Assembly (NCBI GenBank): GCA_016193365.1
Contig: JACPSI010000028.1
Span: 1 to 54,999, forward strand
Direction: 5' to 3'
Length of the DNA stretch: 54,999 nucleotides
Source: Ignavibacteriales bacterium
GTDB lineage: Bacteria > Bacteroidota > Ignavibacteria > UBA10030
Part shown: piece by piece, positions 29,996 through 54,999 of the stretch
How positions within the stretch are numbered: the first letter of the stretch is position 1
Layout: every line of letters starts with the position of its first letter
The notes under the pieces: model-generated
The model's database searches: none
What the model was told of the DNA's origin: nothing
Seen by the model: the letters and a program-made list of their open reading frames with translations, nothing else
Position numbers and translations under genes: made by a program

Positions 29996-30886
29996 TTAGA
30001 GCTCAAATCCAAGAGAGAAGATATGGACATTGCCAAGTCCGAGTGAGAACGGGATGTAAGCATAATCCAAGGTGGCGAATATGTACCGAAAACCGAGACC
30101 CCCTGTGACATTACGTGATTCAAAGCCGGTTTGATAGCCAAGGCGAACAAAAAATGTCTTGTCGTAGCAGGCTTCCGACCCCAGGTTTATCCTGTTTACG
30201 TTCGCGTTCAATTCACGAACAAAAGAGGCGGAGGCAATAATGTCGAAATCGGATTCGGGAACCGCGTAGGAACCTCCGAGCTGAAACTGGGACGGCAAAT
30301 CCGAACCAACTGACCTGAATTTCGAAAGAGATCCAAGATTGGAGACTGAGGCGCCCAGCGAGAGGCCTTCCGGTGATATTCTGTAAACTATTCCAAGGTC
30401 CAGGCTGTATCCCGTCGCTTCGTCGACATAGATTTTTTCGTAGAGATACTTCGCGTTGGCGCCGACGCTGAGATTCTCGGAAAGCGAAAGCGCGTAGAGC
30501 AATTGCAGGGCAGCAGACCTCGCGGTAACCGTAGCAACAGGAGGACCGGGGACTTCTCTCACCTCTATACCGCGAATATGCGTACTCATAATCCCGATTC
30601 CCAGTCTGCCCGGAGCTAACGGAAGAGTCACGGCAAGAAAGTCGTTTTGCACATCTTGAATCCATTCTGTGTGAGAAAAAAGGATTTCGGGATGGACGCT
30701 CATCGCCATGTTGGCGGGATTCAGGAAGGAAGATGAGAAATTCCCCGGGTCGGCTGTTTGAGACTCGCCCAGAGCTCCGATCCTGGAGATGTTAGGAATC
30801 TTGAGGAATGACGAACCTGGAGAGGTTCCCTGGCTTAGGAGAGTCGCCGGGGCAAACAAAAGTAAAAGAAGTGCGATCTTTCTCAT
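29996..30886 (-). CDS. PorV/PorQ-family outer-membrane protein, second of two
   Basis: The 296-residue protein has a signal peptide (LLLLLFAPATLLSQG) and then alternating hydrophobic strands of an outer-membrane barrel. The N-terminal IPNISRIGALGESQTADPGNFSSSFLNPANM is characteristic of the PorV/PorQ family, as are GIGIMSTHIRGIEVRE and VSNLGSLSKF near the middle. PorV works with the type IX secretion system as a carrier of cargo; PorQ links to surface attachment. Its start overlaps the stop of the barrel gene upstream (ATGA). Whether it is a true PorV cannot be told from sequence alone. Confidence 0.82.
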   Translation of the reverse strand: MRKIALLLLLFAPATLLSQGTSPGSSFLKIPNISRIGALGESQTADPGNFSSSFLNPANMAMSVHPEILFSHTEWIQDVQNDFLAVTLPLAPGRLGIGIMSTHIRGIEVREVPGPPVATVTARSAALQLLYALSLSENLSVGANAKYLYEKIYVDEATGYSLDLGIVYRISPEGLSLGASVSNLGSLSKFRSVGSDLPSQFQLGGSYAVPESDFDIIASASFVRELNANVNRINLGSEACYDKTFFVRLGYQTGFESRNVTGGLGFRYIFATLDYAYIPFSLGLGNVHIFSLGFEL

Positions 30887-31848
30887 TCGAAACTGGCGCT
30901 GACAGAAACAATATGAAGTCCTGACGAGACGTACGGCTCAAGAACAAAGGTGTAATGGATACCGGGTTTCCACGAGATCGCCTCGGTTTGGAAGCTGAAG
31001 CCGAACGCGGGCCTCGCGTCCATATTTTGCGAGACGCTTATTTGGTCCAGGCCTCCTCGAAGCTGAAAACCGCCGGTAACGGCAATTTCCGATCCGATGC
31101 GAAACATCGTTTCCGAGTTGATCAGCTCCATTTCTGAAGACACTATGACTCCCACGTCTGGCCGGGAATACGAGAACGCCAATTTTTTTCGTAAGGGAAA
31201 CTTCTCGATTGTTGTATTTCCCAACCTTCCGTAGAGCTTTGAAGTATCCCAGATGTACTTTGAATTAACATCCTGAATCACCGCCGCAACGGCAATCTCG
31301 TTCGTAACCTGGTACACCGCGCCCACATCAATTCCGACGGTTGAGCTGCTCAGTTCTTCGAATAATGAATAATACAGAAGTTTTGCCGTAACTCCGACCG
31401 AAAGCTGTTCGTCGGGTTTGAGGCCAAAGGAAAGAAAGAAAGAGTTTTCTGAGGTGGAGTGTGTTTCTGTGGGCGTGCCATCCCTGTCTCTCCCTTCAAT
31501 GTTCGTAACTCCTGCATTGATGATACCGAAGGAAATACCCGCGGAAGGTTTCAAGCTTTGGACGTAGACAAGGAAATTCAAACGCCGGTCCAGCGACAGT
31601 ACTCCATACGCCGCGGAAACAAAGGGCCATTCCTGAAACGGAACAAGAGCAGGGTTATAGTATGAAGAAACATCGCCGCTGTTGACTGCCGTCATGGCGT
31701 TGCCCATTCCGATGCCACGCGCTCCGAACCCAATCCGAAACGGAGCTCCCGGCGCCCCGCCAAGAGATGAGCTCATAATTGGCTGCCCGAAAAGAAGAAT
31801 GGGAATTTGAGAGAAAAAAAAGACTTTCGAGAAGGTTCGCAAGATCAT
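30883..31848 (-). CDS. PorV/PorQ-like outer-membrane protein, first of two
   Basis: The 321-residue product starts at ATG 31848, which overlaps the preceding stop; a start eight codons earlier is less likely because it lies inside the upstream gene. A signal peptide (VFFFSQIPILLFGQ) precedes the family segment FRIGFGARGIGMGNAMTAVNSGDVSSYYNPALVP, a typical PorV/UPF0164 beginning. Repeated amphipathic strands follow, ending in an aromatic residue (SFE) like many outer-membrane barrels. It is about 25 residues longer than the next gene product, to which it is distantly similar. Pairing with the Asp-box protein upstream suggests a cargo and carrier arrangement. Confidence 0.8.
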   Translation of the reverse strand: MILRTFSKVFFFSQIPILLFGQPIMSSSLGGAPGAPFRIGFGARGIGMGNAMTAVNSGDVSSYYNPALVPFQEWPFVSAAYGVLSLDRRLNFLVYVQSLKPSAGISFGIINAGVTNIEGRDRDGTPTETHSTSENSFFLSFGLKPDEQLSVGVTAKLLYYSLFEELSSSTVGIDVGAVYQVTNEIAVAAVIQDVNSKYIWDTSKLYGRLGNTTIEKFPLRKKLAFSYSRPDVGVIVSSEMELINSETMFRIGSEIAVTGGFQLRGGLDQISVSQNMDARPAFGFSFQTEAISWKPGIHYTFVLEPYVSSGLHIVSVSASFE

Positions 31849-33395
31849 TGTATAGCGAAGATTTTTCCCCAAATCGGCTCAGCGTCATCGACCTCCACGC
31901 GATAGAAATACACGCCGTTTGCAACGCGCTTTCCAGAATTGTCGTTGCCGTCCCAGATTTCATCGTACTCACGCGGTCCGGCTCTTTGAGCGTTCTGAAT
32001 CAATGTCCTTACCGGCTGCATCGCAAAATCGAAAATGCGAATGGTGATGCTTTGGGCGGAGGAACGGGAAACTGTATAGTGGATTCTCACAACTTCATCG
32101 TCCGGCGAGAAAGGGGAGGGATAGGAGTACGTTGCGGATGGTTCGGCTAGGGTCTGGTATGTCCTGAATACCTTCCATTCGGACCCGAACGGTTGCAACG
32201 GCGCGTCAAGAGTGTACGTGATTCCCTCAGGCCCTCCAACCCAAACAGTATCACCCATTGCGGAAACTGCAAACACCGCACTAGATGAAAATCGATGGAG
32301 GTTTTGCTTATCATAAATCGTCCCGCTCCGGGACCATGTTGCTCCCTCATCCGAAGACCGGAAGAGACCCCCGTCCGTTGCGACGTAAACAATGGAATCT
32401 TGAAAGGAGATATTATGTGAGAACTCACCGAGAAGAGCTGTTTTCCAGTTTTGGCCGCCGTCGGCTGAAAAGCTCACTCCCCGGATTTCGTCGGCCGCCT
32501 CAGCATTGATCGTTGCAGCCCAGAGAACGCGTTTTGAAGCCCATCGCTGTTCCTTCAAAGCAACAACAAAGTTCCCCGAGATTGGATTCAATTGATTTTG
32601 ATGTGAGTATTTCTGCCACGAAATCCCGCCGTCCGTGGATTTGTTAATGCCCCCCGCTGTCCCTACCCAGATTGTTGAATCGTCGCTGGCAAAGAGAGAA
32701 AAGACACGATGGTTCAGATTTCCCCTGAGGCCGACTCTTCCGCTAGTCGGGGCAAGGTCAAAATCCAGGGAATCGTTTGGTGAAATGCTGTTCAGGTTGT
32801 CCGGAGGTAGAATAACTCGGTCCCATGTGAGACCTCGGTTGGTCGATTTCCTGAGCATTCCGGCGAAACTGGCAATCCAAATAGTATTCTTTGTCAAAGC
32901 AATATCAAAGGTGACATTATTGACCACGGTGGTTATCGCAAGGGCTAAGATCTTGTTGTTTCCGCCTTCATAATCGAGCGTATCGACAGTTCCCACATCG
33001 ATGGGCTGTGCAACAAATGTCCAGGTTTGGCCGCGGTCAGAGGAATAATAAAGCCCTCCCCCGGACGAAAGCGATTCACCGTCTTGCATTGTGGTGAATG
33101 CAGTTGCAATCCATATGCTCTCATCGTCGACAGCAAGGGCAGAGATCCCCCTGTTTGTTAAGTCGCCCGTATTGCCAAAATTATTCCAGCTTAGCCCTTT
33201 GTTTATTGTGTTCATCAGACCCTTGCCAGTGGCAAACCATAGTGTGTCTCGCACAGTGAGGATATCGGTTATGGAATTGCTTTGGGGAAGTGGGGATGAG
33301 AGAGGCGATTGAAGCGAATAGGTCTTAAGCAACTGCCCTTGCAATGGGGGAAACACCAACAATATGCAAACCGTGGTTTTAAGCCGCATTCTCAT
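31845..33395 (-). CDS. Secreted Asp-box beta-propeller with C-terminal FlgD-type Ig domain
   Basis: The 516-residue protein starts with a signal peptide (TTVCILLVFPPLQGQ). Residues 50-420 form a propeller-like series of repeats with at least five Asp-boxes (SSDRGQTW, STNRGLTW, STDGGISW, SADGGQNW, SSDEGATW). Between them are blade motifs such as IWIASFAGML and IWVGTAGGIN. The C-terminal 90 residues match a FlgD-type Ig domain (IHYTVSRSSAQSITIRIFDF, IWDGNDNSGKRVANGVYFYRVEV). That domain is common at the end of secreted proteins in this lineage and resembles type IX cargo tails. No sialidase catalytic set is evident, so a structural or binding role is more likely. It overlaps both neighbours. 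Confidence 0.85.
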   Translation of the reverse strand: MRMRLKTTVCILLVFPPLQGQLLKTYSLQSPLSSPLPQSNSITDILTVRDTLWFATGKGLMNTINKGLSWNNFGNTGDLTNRGISALAVDDESIWIATAFTTMQDGESLSSGGGLYYSSDRGQTWTFVAQPIDVGTVDTLDYEGGNNKILALAITTVVNNVTFDIALTKNTIWIASFAGMLRKSTNRGLTWDRVILPPDNLNSISPNDSLDFDLAPTSGRVGLRGNLNHRVFSLFASDDSTIWVGTAGGINKSTDGGISWQKYSHQNQLNPISGNFVVALKEQRWASKRVLWAATINAEAADEIRGVSFSADGGQNWKTALLGEFSHNISFQDSIVYVATDGGLFRSSDEGATWSRSGTIYDKQNLHRFSSSAVFAVSAMGDTVWVGGPEGITYTLDAPLQPFGSEWKVFRTYQTLAEPSATYSYPSPFSPDDEVVRIHYTVSRSSAQSITIRIFDFAMQPVRTLIQNAQRAGPREYDEIWDGNDNSGKRVANGVYFYRVEVDDAEPIWGKIFAIQ

Positions 33396-34222
33396 GGCGC
33401 GACCGTGATGCGTTTAGTAATGACATTACTAACGGCATTCGATCGGTCGAAAGCTTGAAACGTAAAATCATAGTCTCGCGGTGGAGGCGGTGGATTGAGC
33501 GAAACAGTTTCCGTGTAAATGCCGTCGCCCGCTGTCTGATCGCCGTTGACGCCTTCATCGTTGAGGAACCGTGGCGTACCGCCATCCGTGCTCCGGGTTA
33601 CTGATTTGATGTCTGCCAAACCGTCAGAATCTGAAGCGCGAACAGTTATGATGAACATCGTTTGAGTCAAGGTGTGAACAGTATCCGGAGCCTGAAGATT
33701 GGAAAGTGTTGGCGGCTGATTTGCGCGGATAATCTGCAATGGAAGGACGAGGCTATTGCTTCGATAACCTCCGGTTCCCTCTGACTGTATTTCGACAGAA
33801 AAAGTCCCAACGGTCGATCGGATGACTTTGAAGGTAACTGTTCCAGAATAAATGCTATCCCCGTTTGTTATATCCGGAGCGATCCCGTTATCAAGGAGTA
33901 GTCCGGAATTTAGAAAAGTGGATCCTCCGATATTCTTGATCACGTAATCCACCTGGGAAATACCTTCTTGTCCGACGGACGACATAACCTTGGCGAATGC
34001 TGTAAGAGAAATATTGAGAACGTCTTCCGGGAGTCGAGTTGGGCCAATGTTAATCGTATCCGTGTTAATTGTTGAAGGAGAAAGCGAAGCACTTATGAGA
34101 AGAGGCGAAGTACCCTGGCTGTCAATAAGAGTTGAGTCCTTCTTTTCGCAAGAGAGGAACAGAAAGAGCAAAATGGAGGAGAATGTGAATTTTGGAATGT
34201 ATGTTGAGAGAAACTGATTCAA
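33392..34222 (-). CDS. Lipoprotein with two Ig-like repeats
   Basis: The 276-residue protein has a lipobox ending at Cys25 (FLFLSC). Two Ig-like domains follow, each ending in the same motif: NGDSIYSGTVTF (near residue 120) and AGDGIYTETVSL (near 240). The second domain starts with QPPTLSNLQAPDTVHTLTQTMFIITVRASDSDGLADI. The start is TTG with GGAGG upstream, and the 3' end overlaps the next start (ATGA). As first gene of the four-gene operon, it may be the anchor or surface partner of the Asp-box protein. I do not recognise a specific function. Confidence 0.75.
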   Translation of the reverse strand: MNQFLSTYIPKFTFSSILLFLFLSCEKKDSTLIDSQGTSPLLISASLSPSTINTDTINIGPTRLPEDVLNISLTAFAKVMSSVGQEGISQVDYVIKNIGGSTFLNSGLLLDNGIAPDITNGDSIYSGTVTFKVIRSTVGTFSVEIQSEGTGGYRSNSLVLPLQIIRANQPPTLSNLQAPDTVHTLTQTMFIITVRASDSDGLADIKSVTRSTDGGTPRFLNDEGVNGDQTAGDGIYTETVSLNPPPPPRDYDFTFQAFDRSNAVSNVITKRITVAP

Positions 34223-34239
34223 AAGATTGCTTTCCTCCG

Positions 34240-34280
34240 CTCTACGAGTCTACTCTACGAGCCTTCGGTTCGAAGAGCCA
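34240..34280 (-). repeat. Short direct and inverted repeats in the leader of the outer-membrane operon
   Basis: CTCTACGAG occurs at 34240-34248 and 34253-34261, 13 bases apart. Just upstream of them in the transcript lies the imperfect inverted sequence GAGCCTTCGGTTCGAAGAGC. They sit directly before the ribosome site of the lipoprotein gene and could form a leader structure or a protein site. No promoter of the local type is clear in the 34223-34399 gap. Confidence 0.35.
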
Positions 34281-34399
34281 TAGGCAAGTTGTAGACTGGA
34301 TCCCGATTCCGTGAATTTTCAGTAGCAATCTGTGTTGAATCAGCCTCTTGAGGAATGTGTTGTTAACACTTTAACGAAGATTATCCTGAAAATCAACTT

Positions 34400-35446
34400 T
34401 TACCCAAGAGTTATTTGAAATGGGACAAAAGTGAAGCACAATATGAAAACAATCAGGCACAGCCAACCGAGCCACATTCTGTTCTCGTCGAGAGGTGTTT
34501 CATCGGGAACGGGTGGATGATACAGCTTGACAATGGTGAACAACACGGCGGCCCAAAAAAGCCATCCGCTCCAGCTGTGCTGAGCAAATGGAATCAACTG
34601 ACCGAAAGGTTCGCGATAATATGACTCCGCGAGTCCTCGCAAAACAGAATCCAATAAGGACGGAAGTCCGAGAATAAGAAGGCCGACAAACGACGAAAGA
34701 GCGACCTTTCGATGACGCTCACCAAACATTGTGTAAATGATGTGGCCGCCGTCCAACTGTCCGATAGGAATCAAATTCATTGCGGTCACAAAGAGCCCGA
34801 ACCACCCAACACATAAATAGGGATAGTGATATATCTCGGACATTGGTGGAATAAACTGCTGTCCTTCGAAGACATTCCTGAAAAACATGAGCACAAGATT
34901 GTCGCCAAACGCCAAACCGAGCGTGGCTGCCCCTGGCACCGAATTGGCGGCAAAATCAAAGTCCGGATGAATGCTGAGGATAAACTCTCTTCCTGGGAGA
35001 GTGAGAAACCCGTAGGCTACCACGAGAAGACACGCAACGAACCCCGCTAACGGTCCTGCAGCGCCAATGTCGAACATGACTTTTCGGGAGGGAACAACCG
35101 AACGAGTTCGTATAACAGCGCCGAGAGTGCCGAAATTGAGTGTGATAAATGGCGGAAACGGAATAAAGAACGGCAGAGTTGCCTCAACTCGATGGTATCG
35201 GGCTGCAAAATAATGTCCGAACTCGTGTGTCGCCAGGATAAACAAAAGGGAAACAGAGTAGGGGATGCCTAGGGCGAAATTCCGCAGCTCGAATTGATCC
35301 TGATTTTGCCACAGGACGCCGGCAACGGTTGTGGTAAAAAATGTGAGAAGGAAGAGAACGAGGTGGAAGCTCCAGTGATATTGTCGGGGCGTTCGAACCA
35401 ATTGTGGACGCTGAGGATCGCCGGTTGATGATTGTTCGTAACTCAT
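34400..35446 (-). CDS. Site-2-protease family membrane metalloprotease (M50)
   Basis: The 348-residue polytopic protein has the zinc motif H74-E75-F-G-H78 in ILATHEFGHYFAARYH and the second M50 motif NLIPIGQLDGGHIIY, whose Asp completes the zinc site. About seven hydrophobic helices are visible and there is no PDZ domain. Such proteases cut transmembrane proteins within the lipid bilayer, often to release a regulator. Its start overlaps the PHP-hydrolase stop (ATGA), making it the last gene of the seven-gene coupled series. A protease at the end of a glycan-synthesis operon is unusual; it may regulate or mature a component of that pathway. Confidence 0.92.
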   Translation of the reverse strand: MSYEQSSTGDPQRPQLVRTPRQYHWSFHLVLFLLTFFTTTVAGVLWQNQDQFELRNFALGIPYSVSLLFILATHEFGHYFAARYHRVEATLPFFIPFPPFITLNFGTLGAVIRTRSVVPSRKVMFDIGAAGPLAGFVACLLVVAYGFLTLPGREFILSIHPDFDFAANSVPGAATLGLAFGDNLVLMFFRNVFEGQQFIPPMSEIYHYPYLCVGWFGLFVTAMNLIPIGQLDGGHIIYTMFGERHRKVALSSFVGLLILGLPSLLDSVLRGLAESYYREPFGQLIPFAQHSWSGWLFWAAVLFTIVKLYHPPVPDETPLDENRMWLGWLCLIVFILCFTFVPFQITLG

Positions 35447-37077
35447 GCGTTAGTCAACTTCTTACGCGGGTGAAGCCAAACAGGGTTGGAATAACAGAAA
35501 TGAGACTTTGCGTCTACCGAACTGTTTGCTGAAGTGAATAATTCGGCCCGAATATAGCATGCTTCTTTAACTGGAAGCGAAATCGTGGCGTTCAGTTTGA
35601 AGCCAGCGTTATCGCGAGAGAACATAACTTCTTCTTCAGTATTTCCTCTTGCTCCTCTAAAAACGCTGAGCCGCTCAATTTGCCCAAATTCCTTTGTCGA
35701 AAGAGCGGACAACTGAAATCTCAGCTTTGATCCCGTAATTGTTTGGCCAATACTCGTGAGGCCCGCCTCTCCCTTTCTTCTTAGATTGACCACGGGGCCG
35801 TCCGTTATGATAAACGATCCAAGGCCGAAGGCATCCAATACATGTTTTTCCGAAAATGGTTTCTCGACAAAAAGGCCGGTCCTCATTTGACCGAAGAGTT
35901 GGTTATCCCGCTCCACGACCTTGAAAAAGGGAAATCCGATTTGTCTGAATCTGTTGAAATTTCCATGCGCATCGTTTCCTGCGATTGTTAAGACCGGACG
36001 TCCATGCAGAAGAAGTTTTTTCCACGCTTGATATCCAACCAGAAATCCGTCATTCATGTTCCCGTTGGCGAATTGAAGGCCGGCCAATCCTTCGAGTTTG
36101 AGGTCATCCTCCTGCCACCTGCCTCGGCGGAGGAGCAATTGCTGGAGGAACGGGACTTTCTCGCGCACGTGTGCTGCAAAAGCAATCGCTCGACCCTCTT
36201 TCTGTCGCAAGACATCACTTACACTATACTCGCTTTTCGTCCTGAGCCATTTTTCAGCTCCGTCTCCGCTTCCGTGAAAAAAACGGGAGTTTCCGTAAAG
36301 AAGCAAATGAACATTTTGACCTTTGCTATTCCGGCAGGATATCTCTTCTCCTGGAACAATCACAAAATGTCCGTCTTTTCTGTTTGCGGTACGAACGGCG
36401 GCTCTGAGGTCATTCCACTTGGGCAAAGACCTATCATTCTCGAGATAATTATCCATGCGGTCGTCGAGGTCATAAGAATGGTCGGTGACACAGAAAAACG
36501 ACAGGCCGATTGCTTTTGAAAGCTCCCGGGATGCTTCCAGCGGTGAACCGAATTCTACCTGGTCGCTCGTATAGTCCGAATGCGTGTGAGCATCTCCTAG
36601 ATAAAAGTGAGGGAAACGGGGGAGTGGATTGCCCGACAAGAAGACTGTGAATGGCTTTCGTGAAGAAGTGATGTGATTGTCGTTGTGGTAGACTCTTGTT
36701 TTTCCACGCCTTTCAATCGTCATTGTAACATCACATTCAACCTGACCTTGCGTCACAGGGCGCGAGATCTTCAAGATTCTCCACCATAAACGGTCGCGCA
36801 GCTCAATCGGCTTCTCCAAAAGATCCTGGGTAGCAACAATGCTTTCATTGTATCGAACAGTTACTCGAACGTGTTTCAACATGCAAGGGTATTTGTCTGC
36901 ATCTTTGGCAAGAAGAAGAATTGGTATTACCTGACCCGGCTCAATTCTGTGGGGGATGTCGGCAATGAGCTCTGGTTCTGACTTTTTCAACAAGCTGAAA
37001 AAGTAACGGAACCGGTAGTGGGTTTCCGCGTAGAGGAAAAACGGGAGACCGAGAAGAATCTCAAACGGAAAACTCAA
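35443..37077 (-). CDS. PHP-domain metal-dependent hydrolase with an extra N-terminal domain
   Basis: The product is about 544 residues from a TTG at 37077 that overlaps the upstream stop (TTGA) and follows AAGGGAAGGAA. Residues 1-155 include a short hydrophobic start and a beta-rich domain. The PHP domain (about 160-420) has GDAHTHSDYTSD (His164, His166), VTDHSYD (Asp199, His200), PGEEI, NVHLLLYG, AAHV and GNDAHGN, the full metal-ligand series of the family. A beta domain follows (about 420-544). PHP proteins cleave phosphoesters; some act on sugar-phosphate or polymer substrates. In this operon the likely substrate is a glycan- or lipid-linked phosphoester, but that is inference. An upstream in-frame ATG lies inside the GT2 gene. 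Confidence 0.82.
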   Translation of the reverse strand: MSFPFEILLGLPFFLYAETHYRFRYFFSLLKKSEPELIADIPHRIEPGQVIPILLLAKDADKYPCMLKHVRVTVRYNESIVATQDLLEKPIELRDRLWWRILKISRPVTQGQVECDVTMTIERRGKTRVYHNDNHITSSRKPFTVFLSGNPLPRFPHFYLGDAHTHSDYTSDQVEFGSPLEASRELSKAIGLSFFCVTDHSYDLDDRMDNYLENDRSLPKWNDLRAAVRTANRKDGHFVIVPGEEISCRNSKGQNVHLLLYGNSRFFHGSGDGAEKWLRTKSEYSVSDVLRQKEGRAIAFAAHVREKVPFLQQLLLRRGRWQEDDLKLEGLAGLQFANGNMNDGFLVGYQAWKKLLLHGRPVLTIAGNDAHGNFNRFRQIGFPFFKVVERDNQLFGQMRTGLFVEKPFSEKHVLDAFGLGSFIITDGPVVNLRRKGEAGLTSIGQTITGSKLRFQLSALSTKEFGQIERLSVFRGARGNTEEEVMFSRDNAGFKLNATISLPVKEACYIRAELFTSANSSVDAKSHFCYSNPVWLHPRKKLTNA

Positions 37078-38165
37078 TAGTTCCTTCCCTTCCAGACGAT
37101 TTTTCCGCCAAATACAACCACTAACGGGAGGAGCATCACATACACGGTAAAATAAAGTTCGAACCACCAAAAATATTTTAATTCACTGGTTTGTTTAAGC
37201 TTCGATAGAACCTGATACAGAAAAGCATAATCGACAGTGCTTTTTGTCATCAGAGCAATAACACATTGAAGGACTCCGTTCCAGAACAGCATGCCGAAAG
37301 CGCTGGCTATGGTTGTGCAGGTGACCGCCATGACGATGAATCCCATGAATTTCATGTCCAGCCCACCTTTTCCCCATCGATGTTTTTGGCGGGTCAGGTC
37401 TTTCCACGTTGTGCAAGGTTTACTCCATACCAAGAGCTGCGGGTCAACGGGATACAGGTATTTCCATTTCTTCGTGTTGATAATACTTTGGACGAGCGTG
37501 TAGTCCTCTGTAACGCTGAACTTCATTTCCCGGTATCCTCCGACAGCGTCGTATGCTTCTTTACGGAAGGAAAGGTTATTGCCGATACTGCCAAGATGCA
37601 GACCCCACGCGACAGACGACGACGCAACACCAAGGATATAAGCCCAGTCGAGAGATTGGATGCCCTCAAACGTTTTCGTTGCTTTTTGCATGGTCATGCC
37701 TCCGACGAGGCCGACTTCAAGTGAAAACCGCTTCGCCGTGTATTCTACCCACGTGGCTGGTACTTCGCAGTCTGCATCGGTGATGAGTACAACCTCGCCT
37801 TTTGTCATGTCGATAGCTTGGGCGAGTGCGTTCGCTTTGCCACGAAGCTTGCTGTCCTCTTTGACCGTGAACGCCCGAATATTTGAATACCTGGCGGCAA
37901 AATCATTACATATTTCCGCGGTACGATCGGACGAATCGTCGTTTGCAACGATGATTTCGAATTTTTCTGCGGGATATGTTTGCCGGGTCACTGATTCAAG
38001 GCACGTCATAATATTCATTTCCTCGTTTCGGGCGGCAACAACAACGGAGACAAAGGGAGAGGCGTTTGACATCAGATCCCGCGCCCTTCGCACACCGAGG
38101 ATAAACAGAGCTCCCTGTGCGACATAACAAACTGTAATGAGAATCAAGAAGTCTTCGAGTGTCAT
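37074..38165 (-). CDS. Membrane GT2 synthase-like glycosyltransferase (third of three)
   Basis: The 363-residue protein has one N-terminal helix (FLILITVCYVAQGALFILGV), a GT-A domain and at least two C-terminal helices. Motifs are VSVVVAARNEEMNIMTCLESV, ANDDSSD, TDADCEV, SVTEDYTLV and RQKHRWGKG, the last being a QxxRW motif that marks processive synthases such as cellulose or chitin synthase. It would build a polysaccharide or glycolipid at the inner membrane. Overlaps on both sides (ATGA with the deacetylase gene, TTGA with the PHP gene) tie it to the operon. Confidence 0.9.
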   Translation of the reverse strand: MTLEDFLILITVCYVAQGALFILGVRRARDLMSNASPFVSVVVAARNEEMNIMTCLESVTRQTYPAEKFEIIVANDDSSDRTAEICNDFAARYSNIRAFTVKEDSKLRGKANALAQAIDMTKGEVVLITDADCEVPATWVEYTAKRFSLEVGLVGGMTMQKATKTFEGIQSLDWAYILGVASSSVAWGLHLGSIGNNLSFRKEAYDAVGGYREMKFSVTEDYTLVQSIINTKKWKYLYPVDPQLLVWSKPCTTWKDLTRQKHRWGKGGLDMKFMGFIVMAVTCTTIASAFGMLFWNGVLQCVIALMTKSTVDYAFLYQVLSKLKQTSELKYFWWFELYFTVYVMLLPLVVVFGGKIVWKGRNY

Positions 38166-38785
38166 GATGGGAGCGGGGAAAAAGTGAACCCGCGTTGGGC
38201 GAGACGCTCAAGAATTCCTGTAAGGAATTCACGAATCCTAACGGATGCAGCCTCGCTGTCGTGGAGAAGGATAATCGAGCCGGGAGCAAGTTCGGATGTC
38301 GCCCGTTGAACGATAATCTCGGCCGGCAACGGCTGAAAATCAGCCGGGTCGGTTGTCCACAGGACAGTTTTGTATCCCATTTGTTTGACAATCTTTGTGG
38401 CCCAGGGATCCAGAAACCCGTACGGAGGGCGAAAAAGCGTAGGCCGTGAGGACGTCACCTCAAGAATTGCCTTCTCAGTTCTCGAAACTTGATCCCTGAC
38501 GAATCGAGCGGAACGTAAAACCAGGAGAGGATGGTCGAAGGAATGATTACCGATGGTGTGTCCCTCGCTGAGTATCCGACGAGTCAGTTCTGGATGCGCC
38601 AGAACATTCTTTCCGAGCAGGAAAAAGGTGGCTTTCGCCTTCCATGTTCTCAGAGTCTCGAGAATCACGCTTGTTGAGGCAGGATGAGGCCCATCATCAA
38701 ATGTCAGATGGACATCAGCCGAGGATGTCGCATACGTGAACGAGGGAAAAAGTATTCGATAAACCCGGTTGCCCGTTATTCTCAT
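38162..38785 (-). CDS. NodB-type polysaccharide deacetylase
   Basis: The 207-residue product is a compact carbohydrate esterase 4 domain. Motif 1 is HLTFDDGPHP (Asp30, Asp31), motif 2 is GHTIGNHSFDHP with metal ligands His81 and His85, motif 3 is LFRPPYGFLD, and the last motif is SIILLHDSE. Such enzymes remove N-acetyl groups from chitin-like, peptidoglycan or exopolysaccharide chains. No signal peptide is evident; the N-terminus (MRITGNRVYRILFPSFTYA) is short, so it may act in the cytoplasm on a lipid-linked precursor. It lies between two membrane GT2 genes with 4-base overlaps on each side. Confidence 0.92.
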   Translation of the reverse strand: MRITGNRVYRILFPSFTYATSSADVHLTFDDGPHPASTSVILETLRTWKAKATFFLLGKNVLAHPELTRRILSEGHTIGNHSFDHPLLVLRSARFVRDQVSRTEKAILEVTSSRPTLFRPPYGFLDPWATKIVKQMGYKTVLWTTDPADFQPLPAEIIVQRATSELAPGSIILLHDSEAASVRIREFLTGILERLAQRGFTFSPLPS

Positions 38786-39906
38786 CGGTCGAGCCTTCTT
38801 CCTTTCCAGTTGTGGGATACAAATTGGGCGAATGCTCCGACCATCACAATGTAGGGAACATGGAACAACTCCGCGAGAAGGAAGTGGAAAAACCTCAGAT
38901 CCTGTCTCAACATTTTCGCTCCCTTTGACAACGAAAGATAATCAACGAGAACCTTGACTGCGAACACGACGATGACAGGAATTCGGAGCGACGGCAGGAA
39001 AACAGAAAGCACAGCACCAACAAGCAAGAAGAAGAAGAAAAAGTAAAGACCAACCATTTCCATGATGATGGATGAATCCTCGTACCGATTCTTTTTTGAT
39101 GCCCAGCGCGTGCGCTGTTTGAGAAATCCCATGACGTCGTGATTCGAATTCGTTTCAATGATGGCGTCCGGGCTGGCCACAAAATGGATGTCTCCCACAC
39201 CGCGCTGAAAAATACGTTGCATCAGAGTTTCATCATCACAGGAACTATCCTGGCTAAACCCATTGACCGACTGAAAGGCAGTTTTTCGGTAGACAAGGTT
39301 GGCGCCGCTGCAGTTAATTGGGCGACCCAGCCCAATGAGGCCGGCCGCCGTCGTTGTGAGTCCGAGGTATTCCATGGATGTGAGTTTTCCCAATAGGGAA
39401 GGGTGTGGTTTTTCGACTACAGGACCGGCAAGGAAAGCCGTGCTTGTAGAAAGCTGTGCAACCATGGAACGCAGCCACGTGCGAGGAACATCACAATCCG
39501 CGTCGGTTGTGGCAATGAGCTCGCCTCGCGATTTGTGAATTCCAAAAGTGATGGCATCCGGCTTCCGTCCTGTCTTTTTTCTGCCCTCAGGCTCCAGCCG
39601 AAACAACCTCACTTTGCCTTTCCCCTTGAATCGCCGCACGATTTGTGCTGTTTTGTCGTAGGAGCCATCATCAACGACAATAATTTCAAACTTGTTTCGG
39701 GGATATTCCTGGCGAATGAGCCCGTTCAGGCATCTCTCAATTGTCGTTTCCTCGTTACGGGCAGCGACGACGATACTGACAAACGGAGATTCTGTGATCA
39801 CTCGCGCAGTCGTGGAAAGTCGTTCGAGTCCTCTTCTCAAGCGGAAAATGAACCAGAAATAAAAAGCACTGAATGCCAACAGCATAACGAGCAGTGCGTC
39901 GTTCAT
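38782..39906 (-). CDS. Membrane GT2 synthase-like glycosyltransferase (second of three)
   Basis: The 374-residue protein starts at ATG 39906, overlapping the flippase-like gene stop; a longer frame upstream runs through that gene and is not used. An N-terminal helix (LLVMLLAFSAFYFWFIF) leads to a GT-A domain with VSIVVAARNEETTIERCLNGL, VVDDGSYD, TTDADCDVP, CDDETLMQ and KQRTRWASK (QxxRW). Two or three C-terminal helices follow. The pattern fits a processive membrane synthase. Overlap with the deacetylase gene at the other end suggests equal production of the two. Confidence 0.9.
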   Translation of the reverse strand: MNDALLVMLLAFSAFYFWFIFRLRRGLERLSTTARVITESPFVSIVVAARNEETTIERCLNGLIRQEYPRNKFEIIVVDDGSYDKTAQIVRRFKGKGKVRLFRLEPEGRKKTGRKPDAITFGIHKSRGELIATTDADCDVPRTWLRSMVAQLSTSTAFLAGPVVEKPHPSLLGKLTSMEYLGLTTTAAGLIGLGRPINCSGANLVYRKTAFQSVNGFSQDSSCDDETLMQRIFQRGVGDIHFVASPDAIIETNSNHDVMGFLKQRTRWASKKNRYEDSSIIMEMVGLYFFFFFLLVGAVLSVFLPSLRIPVIVVFAVKVLVDYLSLSKGAKMLRQDLRFFHFLLAELFHVPYIVMVGAFAQFVSHNWKGRRLDR

Positions 39907-40874
39907 TGTTGTGACCGTGCGGGTGACGGCTTCAGGAATCGCGTTGACGGAAGAAAGAACACGCCCACAAGACTTGGCAAAATCATGTTGGTTGTAAACA
40001 TCATAAGCGCCGCGCTCAGTGCGACAACGTTGGAAACGCCAAGCATCGAGAAGAAATACAACGTGCTGGCCTCTCGAATGCCGATATCTCCTATCGAAAG
40101 AGGAAGGAGGGATTTGAAAAACATCATCGCGGAAAAACCTATAAATGCCGTCCACGGATCTACGCTTCCAAAGGCATTGAGGAAAAAAAACATCTGAAGA
40201 AAAAGCACGAAGTTGAACGCAAGCGAATAGAGGAGCGTCCGCACAATTTCCTTCTTACCGAGCAGGTTAAATGATTCAAGGAGATCCCTGAGCCACTCCT
40301 TGCGAAAAAAATGTAACGGCACCCTCGAGAAAATCTTCTGAATGAGGTCCAACCTGACGTACAAAAAAAGACATCCTGCAACACTGACCACACTTGCTGC
40401 GGCGGCAGGGCCTGCGGACAAAACGAGAAATGCATAGCTTGTCAGTCCGGACATGGCAAGGACCAAAAAAATCTGTGTCCGGTCGAGAATGGTGAGCCCG
40501 ATAATATGCGCCGATTTTCCATTCGCTATTCCAAGAAACCGGCCTCCCAATTCACCAAGTTGCCCTGGTGTGAAGGATCCGAAGGTTATGCCAAGAAAAA
40601 CCGACGTAGCCGCCTCCCTTGCAGTTACTTCATTGCCCGCAGCCCTGAGCATATTTTTCCATTTGAGAATCCTGATGCCAAGGTTCAACGTCAGCAATGA
40701 TGTGGCGACCCCAAGCGACAAAAGGTTGGCGGATTTGAGGGACTCTAAAAGTTCGTTAAGGTCAACCATGCGCAAAACAAAATACATAAGCGCGATGCCG
40801 ACAATGGCCTTTAACGTGAGCAGAATAATCCTTCGACTCCGGGGGATCATAGAAGGCTGTGACCTGTCGGTCAT
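39903..40874 (-). CDS. LPG-synthase/flippase-like integral membrane protein (UPF0104)
   Basis: The 323-residue protein has about seven membrane helices and the family segments KWKNMLRAAGNEVTAREAATSVFLGITFGSFTPGQLGELGGRF and FKSLLPLSIGDIGIREASTLYFFSMLG. These belong to the lysylphosphatidylglycerol-synthase membrane region, in which stand-alone members have been proposed to move lipids across the membrane. The start is ATG 40874, overlapping the first GT2 stop. In an operon with three GT2 enzymes it is a good candidate for moving a glycolipid intermediate outward, though a transfer function is not proven for this type. Confidence 0.87.
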   Translation of the reverse strand: MTDRSQPSMIPRSRRIILLTLKAIVGIALMYFVLRMVDLNELLESLKSANLLSLGVATSLLTLNLGIRILKWKNMLRAAGNEVTAREAATSVFLGITFGSFTPGQLGELGGRFLGIANGKSAHIIGLTILDRTQIFLVLAMSGLTSYAFLVLSAGPAAAASVVSVAGCLFLYVRLDLIQKIFSRVPLHFFRKEWLRDLLESFNLLGKKEIVRTLLYSLAFNFVLFLQMFFFLNAFGSVDPWTAFIGFSAMMFFKSLLPLSIGDIGIREASTLYFFSMLGVSNVVALSAALMMFTTNMILPSLVGVFFLPSTRFLKPSPARSQQ

Positions 40875-42022
40875 GATTTCGGCTCTGGCTTCCATTGAAA
40901 CGACCCAACAAGGCCAAGGGGCCCGATAAACGTGTTGTAAAAAATGTAGAGAATTTCCATCAGAAGAAAATAGCCCCCAAAACCTCGTTGTGAGAATACC
41001 TCCGCAATGAGAAGAAACAGACTGACATCTGCGGCAAGTTTGACGGCAAAGGTTGGCAACCCCAGAGCAAGGCCTGAAATGCCGGCAAAGAACCCCAGAA
41101 GCCCGAGGAGAAGTAACAGGTTCGAGAAATGAAAAAGAAAGAAGAAAACCTTCATGGAAATCGGGAAGTATCTGGCGGCCGAGAAATGTCGTTTACGCTG
41201 TTCCACGAATTCCCGAAAGGATCCCGGCGGGCGTGTCCGGACGAAGCTTGTCGGAGACGTCATGTACCGTATTTTCCATTTCGTGGTTCGGCGGACAAGC
41301 TGCAAAAAGAGGTCATCGTCTCCGCTCACAGAATGCTTTATCCGCTCAAATCCCCCCACCTCGTCATACACCTCCCTGCGATAGGCAAGGTTTCTCCCAG
41401 TGCAAAGCCAGCCCTTGTTCACGCCAATTCCTCCGGCAGAGCACGCAGCCGCCTTAAGCTCCTCGTAAGCAATGAATTTCTGAAACAGGCTTTTCAAAAA
41501 TCCTGTTGATCTCTTCGCCAGAAGCGTCCCATCGTAGGGCGAGTAACCGGCAACCAGGCCGACAGTATCGTCAAAGGCAGCAACAATTTCAGAAATCCAT
41601 CGCTTCGGGGGAAGACAGTCGGCGTCTGTAAAACAAAGGATCTCTCCTTTACTGAGTTTGATAGCGGACGCAAGTGCATTCTTCTTGGGCGGCATGGCTT
41701 TTGGGGTGGAAGTGATCTCGACAACCTTGAGATTCCGGAACTTTTGCCTGTACTTGTTGAGAATTGCGGTCGTGTTGTCAGAAGACCTGTCGTTTGCAAT
41801 GATTATCTCGAAGGAAGGGTAATCTTGTGTAAGAAGGTTGGGGAGCAACGCTTTCAGGTTCGCTTCTTCATTCCGTGCGGCGACAATGACGGATACTCGA
41901 GGAGTTCTCAGAGAACGCGCGTACTTTGTCCTGAACAAACCGATAATGAAAATGAGCACCACCAGCGAATAAAACACGGCCGACGTCGAGAGCACGGCTT
42001 GGAGCAAAAGGTCGACATTCAT
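40871..42022 (-). CDS. Membrane GT2 synthase-like glycosyltransferase (first of three)
   Basis: The 383-residue protein has an N-terminal helix (TSAVFYSLVVLIFIIGLF), a GT-A domain with VSVIVAARNEEANLKALLPNLL, ANDRSSDN, TDADCLPP and SGDDDLFLQ, and three hydrophobic C-terminal segments. The final acceptor-site motif reads EQRKRHFSA, where the two other enzymes have QxxRW; the tryptophan is replaced by His. It begins the coupled operon and diverges from uridine kinase across a 73-base gap. The altered motif suggests a distinct sugar or a single-addition role. Confidence 0.9.
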   Translation of the reverse strand: MNVDLLLQAVLSTSAVFYSLVVLIFIIGLFRTKYARSLRTPRVSVIVAARNEEANLKALLPNLLTQDYPSFEIIIANDRSSDNTTAILNKYRQKFRNLKVVEITSTPKAMPPKKNALASAIKLSKGEILCFTDADCLPPKRWISEIVAAFDDTVGLVAGYSPYDGTLLAKRSTGFLKSLFQKFIAYEELKAAACSAGGIGVNKGWLCTGRNLAYRREVYDEVGGFERIKHSVSGDDDLFLQLVRRTTKWKIRYMTSPTSFVRTRPPGSFREFVEQRKRHFSAARYFPISMKVFFFLFHFSNLLLLLGLLGFFAGISGLALGLPTFAVKLAADVSLFLLIAEVFSQRGFGGYFLLMEILYIFYNTFIGPLGLVGSFQWKPEPKS

Positions 42023-42059: not shown

Positions 42060-42090
42060 TTGATACTTCTGGCACTTCGGTCTATATTTG
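42060..42090 (+). promoter_or_regulatory. Promoter of uridine kinase
   Basis: TTGATA (42060-42065) and TATATT (42083-42088) are 17 bases apart; equally TTG-N20-TATATTTG, a perfect TAnnTTTG. Transcription would begin about 42095-42096, at the start codon itself, so the message may be leaderless. Confidence 0.7.
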
Positions 42091-42095
42091 TTGAG

Positions 42096-42716
42096 ATGAA
42101 ATCACTGATCATTGGCATTGCAGGCGGCAGCGCATCTGGGAAAACAACGGTGACAAACAAGATTCTCGAGCATATCGACGAAACTCGTGTCGTGGTCATC
42201 CAGCACGATTCCTACTACAAAGACATAAGCGAATTTGACGGGATAGCCCCAGAGAGCATCAACTTCGACCATCCGAACTCGCTGGACACAAACCTGCTGG
42301 TTGAGCACATCGAGCACCTTCGAGAACGGAGGGCGGTTGAGCAACCCATGTACAGTTTTACCACGCTTCGACGCCTGAAGGAAACGCGTCGTGTTGAACC
42401 AAAAGACATTATCATCGTTGACGGCATTCTTATTTTCGTGGAAAAGAAATTGCGCGATTTGATGGACATCAAGATTTTTGTCGACACGGATGCAGACGAG
42501 AGACTCATCAGAAGAATTCGCAGAGATATCCTCGAGCGCGGTCGTTCCATTGAATCCGTTATGAATCAGTACATGGACACGGTGAAACCGATGCATCTGG
42601 AATTTGTGGAACCGAGCAAACACTGGGCCGATGTTATAATCCCGCGAGGCGCCGAGAACGTTGTCGCCGTGGATATGGTCGTCACGAAAATTGAATCCCT
42701 TATGTCGGAGCTTTGA
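42096..42716 (+). CDS. udk: Uridine kinase
   Basis: The 206-residue enzyme phosphorylates uridine and cytidine in pyrimidine salvage. Walker A is GIAGGSASGKTT (residues 7-18). Next come HDSYYKD, NFDHPNSLDTNLLVEHI, PMYSFTTLRR, IIVDGILIF and the lid segment DERLIRRIRRDILERGRSIESV. The ATG at 42096 was chosen because it gives the usual N-terminus; an upstream ATG at 42060 would start inside the promoter. No ribosome site precedes the chosen start, in keeping with a leaderless message. Confidence 0.95.
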   Translation: MKSLIIGIAGGSASGKTTVTNKILEHIDETRVVVIQHDSYYKDISEFDGIAPESINFDHPNSLDTNLLVEHIEHLRERRAVEQPMYSFTTLRRLKETRRVEPKDIIIVDGILIFVEKKLRDLMDIKIFVDTDADERLIRRIRRDILERGRSIESVMNQYMDTVKPMHLEFVEPSKHWADVIIPRGAENVVAVDMVVTKIESLMSEL

Positions 42717-53425: not shown

Positions 53426-54999
53426 ATGGTTGACAAGAGAGCGGTCTCGAGAATGTTTTACGAGATAGGCACACTTCTGGAGCTTAAGGGTGAAAACCGT
53501 TTTAAGTGTATTGCTTATCAAAACGCCGCTCGAAACATCGAGGCATTAACAGTTGATTTAGAAGAACTTATCAAGAGAGACGAGTTAAAGGACGTGAGGG
53601 GTATTGGCAAGACGATGGCAGAGAATATCGTGGAGTATGTTCAGACGGGGCGAATACGTTTCTACGATGAACTCCGGTCTTCCATTCCTGAAGGCGTAAT
53701 CGAAATGCTTCGCGTTCACGGGCTGGGACCAAAAAAGGTGAAGCTCCTCTATGAAAAACTCAAGATCAAGTCGTTGCAAGAGCTTCAGGAGGCTGCCGAG
53801 AACGAGAAATTGAGAGATGTTACGGGATTCGGCCAAAAAACAGAGGAAAACATACTCAAAGGCATAGAAGCTCTTCGGACCACAAGCGACAGGCAACTTT
53901 ATCCTAAAGCAAAAGAGGCGGCCGATAAGATCGTATCCGCACTAAAAAAAATGAGAGAGGTCAAGCGCGTTGATGTAGCAGGAAGTCTTCGGCGGCGAAA
54001 AGAAGTTATCGGCGATATCGACATTGTGGTCAGTGCCCAAAAAAAGGACCGTCAAAAGATTGCAGCTGCTTTTGTTTCCCATGCGGAAGTCGCCAATATC
54101 ATCGGCCAGGGCGACACAAAGGCCAGTGTGGTGCTCAAGGGAGGAATTAACAGCGATTTGAGGATTGTAGAGGACTCTGAGTACCCCTTCGCGCTCAATT
54201 ACTTCACCGGGAGCAAGGAGCACAATGTGGAAATGCGTACACTTGCCCGAAAGCTCGGCTGGAGCCTAAACGAGTACGAGTTTTCAAAGATCGAAGGAAT
54301 GAAATCAAAGGCGCCGCCAAAATGCAGGGACGAGAGTGAAATCTATAAGGCACTTGGACTTCGATACGTCGAGCCTGAGCTCCGTGAGAATATGGGGGAG
54401 TTCGAGGCTTCAGTTGAAGACAAATTGCCGAAGTTGCTTGACTTCAAAGACTTGCGCGGGACATTTCACTGTCATTCGACGTACAGCGACGGCGCAAATA
54501 CGCTTGAAGAAATGGCCGAGGCGTGCAGGAATCTTGGATGGTCATACCTTGGCATAGCAGACCATAGCCAGATTGCGGTCTACGCGAACGGACTTCCTGT
54601 TGAGAAAATTCGGGAGCAGCACAAGGAAATCGACAAGCTCAATGGCCGGTTTAAGAATTTTCGCATCTTTAAGGGAACCGAGGTCGATATTCTGGGAGAT
54701 GGGGCCCTGGACTATCCAGACAAAGTTCTGGCAAGTTTCGAGTTCGTCGTCGCTGCTATTCATAGTCGTATGAAAATGACGGCCCAGGAGGCCACCGAAC
54801 GCATTCTAAAGGCAATAAAGAACAAATACGTGACAATTCTCGGCCATCCCACAGGGCGTCTCTTACTGTCACGCGATGGGTATCCTGTCGATATGGTGGA
54901 AGTCATCAACGCGGCGGCCGACTACGGTAAGTCCATCGAGATCAACTCGCACCCGATTCGTCTCGACCTCGATTGGCGGCTCGTGAAATATGCCAAGGA
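53426..54999 (+). CDS. polX: DNA polymerase X family protein with PHP domain (cut by window edge)
   Basis: The frame is open from ATG 53426 to the window end (524 codons). It opens with an 8-kDa-like helical domain (VSRMFYEIGTLLELKGENRFKCIAYQNAARNIEAL), then helix-hairpin-helix repeats (VRGIGKTMAENI, VHGLGPKKVKLLYEKL, VTGFGQKTEENI). The polymerase-beta catalytic segment GSLRRRKEVIGDIDIVV follows. After about residue 345 a PHP domain begins (GTFHCHSTYSDGANTLEE, LGIADHSQ, GTEVDIL, AAIHSRMKM, LGHPTGRLL), a metal-dependent 3'-5' exonuclease in bacterial PolX. It serves gap filling and base-excision repair. GAGGGA lies 11 bases before the start. The end is missing. Confidence 0.95.
   Translation, partial: MVDKRAVSRMFYEIGTLLELKGENRFKCIAYQNAARNIEALTVDLEELIKRDELKDVRGIGKTMAENIVEYVQTGRIRFYDELRSSIPEGVIEMLRVHGLGPKKVKLLYEKLKIKSLQELQEAAENEKLRDVTGFGQKTEENILKGIEALRTTSDRQLYPKAKEAADKIVSALKKMREVKRVDVAGSLRRRKEVIGDIDIVVSAQKKDRQKIAAAFVSHAEVANIIGQGDTKASVVLKGGINSDLRIVEDSEYPFALNYFTGSKEHNVEMRTLARKLGWSLNEYEFSKIEGMKSKAPPKCRDESEIYKALGLRYVEPELRENMGEFEASVEDKLPKLLDFKDLRGTFHCHSTYSDGANTLEEMAEACRNLGWSYLGIADHSQIAVYANGLPVEKIREQHKEIDKLNGRFKNFRIFKGTEVDILGDGALDYPDKVLASFEFVVAAIHSRMKMTAQEATERILKAIKNKYVTILGHPTGRLLLSRDGYPVDMVEVINAAADYGKSIEINSHPIRLDLDWRLVKYAK

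Follow-up and report, generated by a model that had tools for sequence, protein, structure and literature searches.

Several described systems combine a glycosyltransferase of family GT2 with a deacetylase-type partner. In bacteriohopanetetrol glucosamine synthesis, the membrane GT2 HpnI adds an N-acetylhexosamine (HexNAc) to a lipid, which is then deacetylated by HpnK, a YdjC-type enzyme. ArnC, ArnD and ArnEF, which serve undecaprenyl-phosphate-linked aminoarabinose, are a GT2, a cytosolic NodB-type enzyme and a flippase, while PgaC/PgaB and NodC/NodB pair GT2 synthases with NodB-type deacetylases for poly-N-acetylglucosamine (PNAG) and chitooligosaccharide. Here we compare these systems with a locus on the minus strand (34400-42022) of a 54,999 nt stretch of DNA from Ignavibacteriales bacterium, hereafter the window (assembly GCA_016193365.1, contig JACPSI010000028.1, positions 1-54,999, forward strand). 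It encodes three membrane GT2s (GT2a, GT2b, GT2c), a flippase-like membrane protein of the LPG_synthase_TM family (flip), a NodB-type deacetylase of family CE4 (NodB), a CehA/McbA-like metallohydrolase (PHP) and a site-2 protease (M50). On comparative evidence, the first six genes are one ancient, co-inherited gene set, and we lean narrowly towards reading them as an operon for one membrane-bound envelope glycoconjugate, most likely an amino-sugar glycolipid or a short lipid-linked oligosaccharide. A search of open-licence papers found no description of this gene set, in agreement with the initial annotation of the locus, which knew of no such system.

The seven genes and their six 4-base overlaps (five ATGA, one TTGA) were all reproduced when the genes were called again from the sequence. 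GT2a (40871-42022, 383 aa) shares an ATGA at 40871-40874 with flip (39903-40874, 323 aa, several transmembrane segments); further ATGA overlaps join flip to GT2b (38782-39906, 374 aa) at 39903-39906, GT2b, which thus has ATGA at both ends, to NodB (38162-38785, 207 aa) at 38782-38785, and NodB to GT2c (37074-38165, 363 aa) at 38162-38165. PHP (35443-37077, 544 aa) starts with TTG, in the TTGA shared with GT2c at 37074-37077, and an ATGA at 35443-35446 joins it to M50 (34400-35446). A divergent uridine-kinase-like gene (udk, 42060-42716, plus strand) is the upstream border of the operon. The initial annotation took the overlaps as a sign of tight co-translation. Because 4-base overlaps occur often in the window (14 NTGA overlaps among 41 same-strand neighbours in a greedy gene call, the next three downstream junctions included), we dropped them as an argument from chance: six in a row are not remarkable alone, and overlaps alone are no evidence of one function. 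The excess over chance lies in the order and coupling kept in relatives.

PHP was sought in the families of the window's order, namely its own and four others (f2 to f5). Orthologues were found in 12 of 12 sampled genomes of the window's family and in 8 of 8 from f3, a second family, whereas the genomes listed for f2, f4 and f5 had none. Around PHP the order GT2a-flip-GT2b-NodB-GT2c-PHP is nearly constant, bounded by the udk homologue, which is divergent from GT2a in most loci, and by a downstream block of M50, a choice-of-anchor-X protein (aX), a BNR/propeller protein (BNR) and a PorV/PorQ family protein (PorV). The search for the seven-gene order in relatives that had been suggested with the initial annotation therefore bore out the first six genes, but not M50, whose overlap with PHP recurs in no locus other than the window among 22. 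The order is kept in the window's family and in f3, where a GT28/MurG-like transferase precedes PHP and a DUF1207 protein follows it; some loci are rearranged or one gene short, with GT2c or GT2b missing from some f3 loci, NodB undetected in two PHP neighbourhoods, and one locus (L034) keeping PHP and the downstream block without any further glycan gene. In deduplicated loci, NTGA coupling was counted at 14/33 GT2a/flip, 25/42 flip/GT2b, 28/39 GT2b/NodB, 28/36 NodB/GT2c and 21/32 GT2c/PHP junctions. The set is nevertheless not fixed at seven, as had been supposed: flip, GT2b, NodB and GT2c are its commonest block, and GT2a, PHP, the GT28-like gene, a radical SAM gene and genes for outer-membrane proteins vary in presence.

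All three transferases are GT2 family members with invariant GT-A acid motifs of the D/DxD/ED type (PF00535, 82.6 bits for GT2a, 87.7 for GT2b and 91.9 for GT2c; cut-off 23.3), and hydropathy places one N-terminal and about three C-terminal transmembrane segments in each. As first noted, two carry QxxRW (QRTRW in GT2b, QKHRW in GT2c) and GT2a carries QxxRH (QRxRH); since this histidine is invariant among GT2a orthologues, as are SGDDDLF and TDAD, we regard it as the mark of a lineage and not as a defect. In a maximum-likelihood tree of 94 GT2s, the three form separate lineages that span phyla; the GT2c clade (27 rows, several phyla) has support of 100/100, while the GT2a and GT2b groupings have weaker support at the base. 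A KSB1-like genome, BMS3Bbin03 (L117), has GT2a, GT2b and GT2c ordered as in the window and also carries flip, NodB, PHP and a radical SAM gene. Because the lineages span phyla and the same order recurs in BMS3Bbin03, the three genes are ancient and separately inherited, with no recent copies among them. GT2c is the most widely conserved member of the set.

A wider scan, of one genome per species, gave 251 relatives of PHP, of which 80 were kept. Almost all of these are metagenomic; they belong to Ignavibacteria and other Bacteroidota, Calditrichota, KSB1, Zixibacteria, Gemmatimonadota, Latescibacterota and Neomarinimicrobiota. The gene set as such has relatives in Calditrichota, KSB1, Zixibacteria and Gemmatimonadota. 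Roughly half of the distant loci show PHP next to GT2s, flip, NodB or radical SAM genes. GT2c-like genes (E<=1e-30) were present in 18 of 18 PHP genomes tested, 12 of which have PHP away from GT2s, and several of these genes form clusters that include flip, NodB, radical SAM, Wzi or DUF3108 genes although PHP lies elsewhere. In one family from a different class, PHP is not linked to GT2a-flip-GT2b-NodB-GT2c-radical SAM, which is intact at another site in the genome. Additional genes that recur are radical SAM (PF04055, in some cases with SPASM), Wzi (PF14052) and DUF3108; Wzi and DUF1207, and DUF3108 likewise, are outer-membrane partners in relatives. In a number of KSB1 and Calditrichota loci (L098, L106, L180, L186-L189 and others), radical SAM/SPASM, Wzi-type and DUF3108 genes recur beside the GT2s and flip, which suggests radical chemistry at the level of the lipid or glycan.

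The deacetylase is a clear CE4/NodB member (PF01522, Polysacc_deac_1, 118.1 bits), with TFDDGP, HxxxH, RPPxG and HD invariant in 16 orthologues, and is nearest to PdaB/NodB/PgdA-type enzymes. Because a hydropathy search found no transmembrane segment, and with no signal peptide seen, NodB is probably cytosolic; a cytosolic deacetylase needs a cytosolic substrate, which would probably be lipid-linked. The flip protein belongs to LPG_synthase_TM (MprF/AglD-like; PF03706, 97.6 bits, cut-off 33.4), scored 28.3 bits on TIGR00374, under its cut-off of 43.2, and had no match in a PDB sequence search. Pfam thus supports the family names first given to the GT2s, flip and NodB, and also to M50 (Peptidase_M50), and for PHP only the NCBIfam CehA/McbA model gave a match, just under its cut-off in the window.

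No Pfam model matched the PHP of the window or any of 16 aligned orthologues. NF038032, the CehA/McbA model, was the best match for all 16; the window protein scores 75.6-75.7 bits on it, a little short of the curated cut-off of 80. The orthologues keep the candidate metal ligands HxH, DHS, GEE, NxH, AAH and DAH together with an N-terminal YAExHYRF segment, and hydropathy finds no transmembrane segment in PHP. By these alignments PHP looks like a distinct CehA/McbA-type subfamily. Structure modelling, another suggested check, gave a good AlphaFold model (predicted local distance difference test, pLDDT, 87), but its fold comparison was unusable: Foldseek against the PDB returned beta-sandwich matches only, with TM scores below 0.25, which we discarded, and a PDB sequence search gave no match. 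Elsewhere in the window, an open frame of 529 aa that may be PolX-like holds a second, weak PHP-domain match (54416-54694, plus strand; 1.6e-6).

What we observe for the six genes is their family membership, their intact motifs, their conserved order and coupling and a deep co-inheritance; the acceptor lipid, the sugars, the flipping and the PHP reaction we infer. In the proposed pathway, three non-redundant membrane GT2s would work on the inner membrane's inner face and each add a sugar, cytosolic NodB would remove the acetyl group from a HexNAc, and flip may carry the lipid across the membrane, a role suggested by its family. PHP would cleave either a phosphodiester or an acyl bond in an intermediate by hydrolysis; members of the CehA/McbA family are not necessarily phosphoesterases. 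Phosphoester cleavage, like the deacetylated amino sugar and the flipping of the initial annotation, is a prediction from family membership. A broader proposal, possible but tentative, is that the locus represents an undescribed class of envelope amino-glycolipid, found in several phyla of that part of the bacterial tree which holds Bacteroidetes, Calditrichota, KSB1, Zixibacteria and Gemmatimonadota. The three GT2 lineages, inherited together, would build it; the deacetylase, the new PHP subfamily and, in relatives, radical SAM enzymes would then modify it while on the lipid, and the outer-membrane proteins Wzi or DUF1207 would display it. If our reading of the six genes is right, it would provide a biosynthetic locus for an envelope molecule common to several phyla with few cultured members, and a role for a PHP hydrolase subfamily outside every Pfam model.

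A number of results weigh against a glycolipid made by this six-gene set. Roughly half of the distant genomes carry PHP at an unlinked site, and many genomes with flip-GT2b-NodB-GT2c lack it; PHP is thus not essential to that core. GT2c-like genes are widespread in the phylum (73/148), which makes their co-occurrence less telling. The evolutionary distances of PHP correlate with those of GT2c (r 0.89), GT2b (0.84), NodB (0.84) and udk (0.78), but as well with those of M50 (0.86) and BNR (0.87), and shared descent therefore accounts for much of the co-inheritance signal. GT2c also scores higher on the PgaC model (93.6 bits) than on the HpnI model (68.8 bits), which would allow a polymer. In favour of a glycolipid, GT2c matches ceramide glucosyltransferase over most of its length (57.1 bits), but the fold of its AlphaFold model (pLDDT 92) is just as near to hyaluronan and cellulose synthases (TM score up to 0.71); the fold search, tried as a discriminator between glycolipid and polymer, could not separate the two kinds of synthase. 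The choice of glycolipid over polymer is a judgement of ours and not a result.

The PgaC score and the synthase folds lend weight to a partly deacetylated, PNAG- or chitosan-like exopolysaccharide, made and exported by the operon, in which one processive GT2 would polymerise, the others would prime or branch, and NodB would deacetylate. GT2b and GT2c have their highest or near-highest NCBIfam scores on the PgaC/MftF models (91-102 bits), and the nearest relatives of NodB, as well as the Wzi genes of relatives, would also suit such a product. We nevertheless consider it unlikely, as neither GT2 is a member of the PNAG synthases PgaC/IcaA (TIGR03937, 93.6 bits at best, curated cut-off 422.3), NodB has neither signal peptide nor transmembrane segment, unlike the exported PgaB/IcaB, one N-terminal transmembrane segment and about 363-383 aa suit GT21/HpnI-like enzymes better, and the three GT2 lineages stay separate.

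Distinctly unlikely, in our estimate, is a pathway analogous to that of ArnC/ArnD/ArnEF, in which undecaprenyl-phosphate-linked amino sugars would be flipped and would decorate lipopolysaccharide, a surface polymer or proteins secreted by the type IX secretion system (T9SS). The general logic of the Arn pathway, which joins a GT2 to a NodB-type enzyme of the cytosol and to a flippase, is repeated here, ArnC structures are among the GT2 matches, and genes for a T9SS-type secreted protein and PorV adjoin the set class-wide. However, the GT2s resemble ArnC only weakly (best score about 42 bits), the cluster yielded no ArnT-like transferase, and three GT2s with C-terminal transmembrane segments resemble assembly enzymes.

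M50 is a genuine family member (PF02163, 77.7 bits), with HEFGH and LDGGH in the window, largely kept in relatives. Of 60 genomes examined from the order, 50 have M50, families without PHP included; it lies far from PHP in 8 of the 22 loci, several times behind a divergent two-gene insert, and overlaps aX in 1 of 32 loci. Because it is order-wide without PHP and is coupled to PHP in the window alone, we judge it separate: M50 is outside the glycan set, a neighbour with its own distribution. Its place beside GT2c is old: the class has other families in which M50-aX-BNR-PorV comes immediately after GT2c, or after a DUF1207 or radical SAM gene. It is thus very improbable that all seven genes are one unit whose protease controls glycan synthesis by intramembrane proteolysis, as the initial annotation proposed from the PHP/M50 ATGA overlap, even with M50 downstream of GT2c class-wide. 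The PHP/M50 junction is as tight as the others yet is the non-conserved one, so that overlap alone misleads, and it is by conservation that the six-gene unit is told apart from a chance neighbour.

The block that M50 heads (30883-35446 in the window; also L147, L148, L157, L161 and L165) is found class-wide. In the window it continues on the minus strand with aX (33392-34222, NF041940), BNR (31845-33395), which has a FlgD_ig-type C-terminal domain by Pfam/NCBIfam and is probably T9SS-secreted, and the outer-membrane protein PorV (30883-31872; NF033709, 75.4 bits, cut-off 90). NTGA coupling joins aX and BNR in 26 of 31 loci, and M50-aX-BNR-PorV is probably a T9SS-linked surface protein set.

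In many relatives, the insert between GT2c/PHP and M50 is a divergent pair encoding an enhancer-binding-type regulator and a sensor-like protein with several transmembrane segments and no Pfam family. The regulator matches PF00158 (Sigma54_activat) and a Fis helix-turn-helix, with no receiver domain found; its GAFTGA motif, read by eye, seems to be replaced, e.g. by FGFEKGVPGMPPTTKRG (L040:11667-12695, L034, L038, L048 and relatives), it may not use sigma-54, and no -24/-12 type promoter was found upstream of the peptide genes described below (0/32). A small gene lies directly upstream of M50 in 29 of 29 distinct loci with the membrane protein divergent from M50 within 2 kb, a count of candidates, since the precursors were selected by a score favouring PRP, PKP or PPP endings. 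Its product has a signal-like leader, behind which stand, in 27 of the 29, 2-7 near-identical copies of a 10-17 residue unit that mostly ends in PRP, PKP or PPP, e.g. SGVAHMPDSPRP; the units differ among genera and the leader is conserved. Because the selection score favours such endings, it is the tandem repeats and the shared leader that we take as independent support. The module looks, from its sequences, like a hypervariable secreted peptide signal with its own sensor and regulator in Gram-negative bacteria. The small secreted precursors form an order-wide family, with the precursor gene in the gap between the sensor-like gene and M50 in L206, L034, L038, L040, L051, L060, L077, L156, L157, L194-L199 and L203-L213; further sensor-like and regulator copies stand at unrelated sites (L214-L220), with no repeat peptide found nearby. 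In a survey of 294 class genomes, the membrane protein was present in 37, nearly all of the window's order, and not in the window's genome; loss of the insert would explain why PHP and M50 are so close in the window.

Compared with the described systems, the locus shares with HpnI/HpnK a membrane GT2 of similar size and layout, HpnI being a top NCBIfam match of GT2a and GT2c (68-71 bits), but it is far under the HpnI cut-off (TIGR03472, 71.3 against 310 bits), has a CE4 NodB in place of HpnK, and has three GT2s and PHP; a search of the genome found no hopene cyclase that passed the cut-off, and we rejected a hopanoid link. When a sphingolipid link was sought, two alpha-oxoamine-synthase-like genes were found in the genome, under the model's cut-off, and for the aminoglycosphingolipid of Chlorobium, which we also considered, no supporting paper was found. 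From ArnC/ArnD/ArnEF, with which it has in common a GT2, a NodB-type cytosolic enzyme and a flippase, it departs in the family of its flippase, in its weak resemblance to ArnC, in its three GT2s and PHP, and in the lack of an identified ArnT in the cluster. Like PgaC/PgaB and NodC/NodB it sets a GT2 synthase beside a NodB-type deacetylase, but it misses all three equivalog cut-offs (PgaC 93.6/422, NodC 55/550, NodB 136/240), and no PgaA, PgaB or NodA was identified. Finally, PHP keeps its candidate metal motifs intact and every aligned orthologue matches the model of the CehA/McbA metallohydrolases, though the window protein, at 75.6/80, falls just short of the cut-off; it differs from them in its extra conserved YAExHYRF segment and beta domain and in belonging to a glycan operon instead of a carbamate-degradation gene set.

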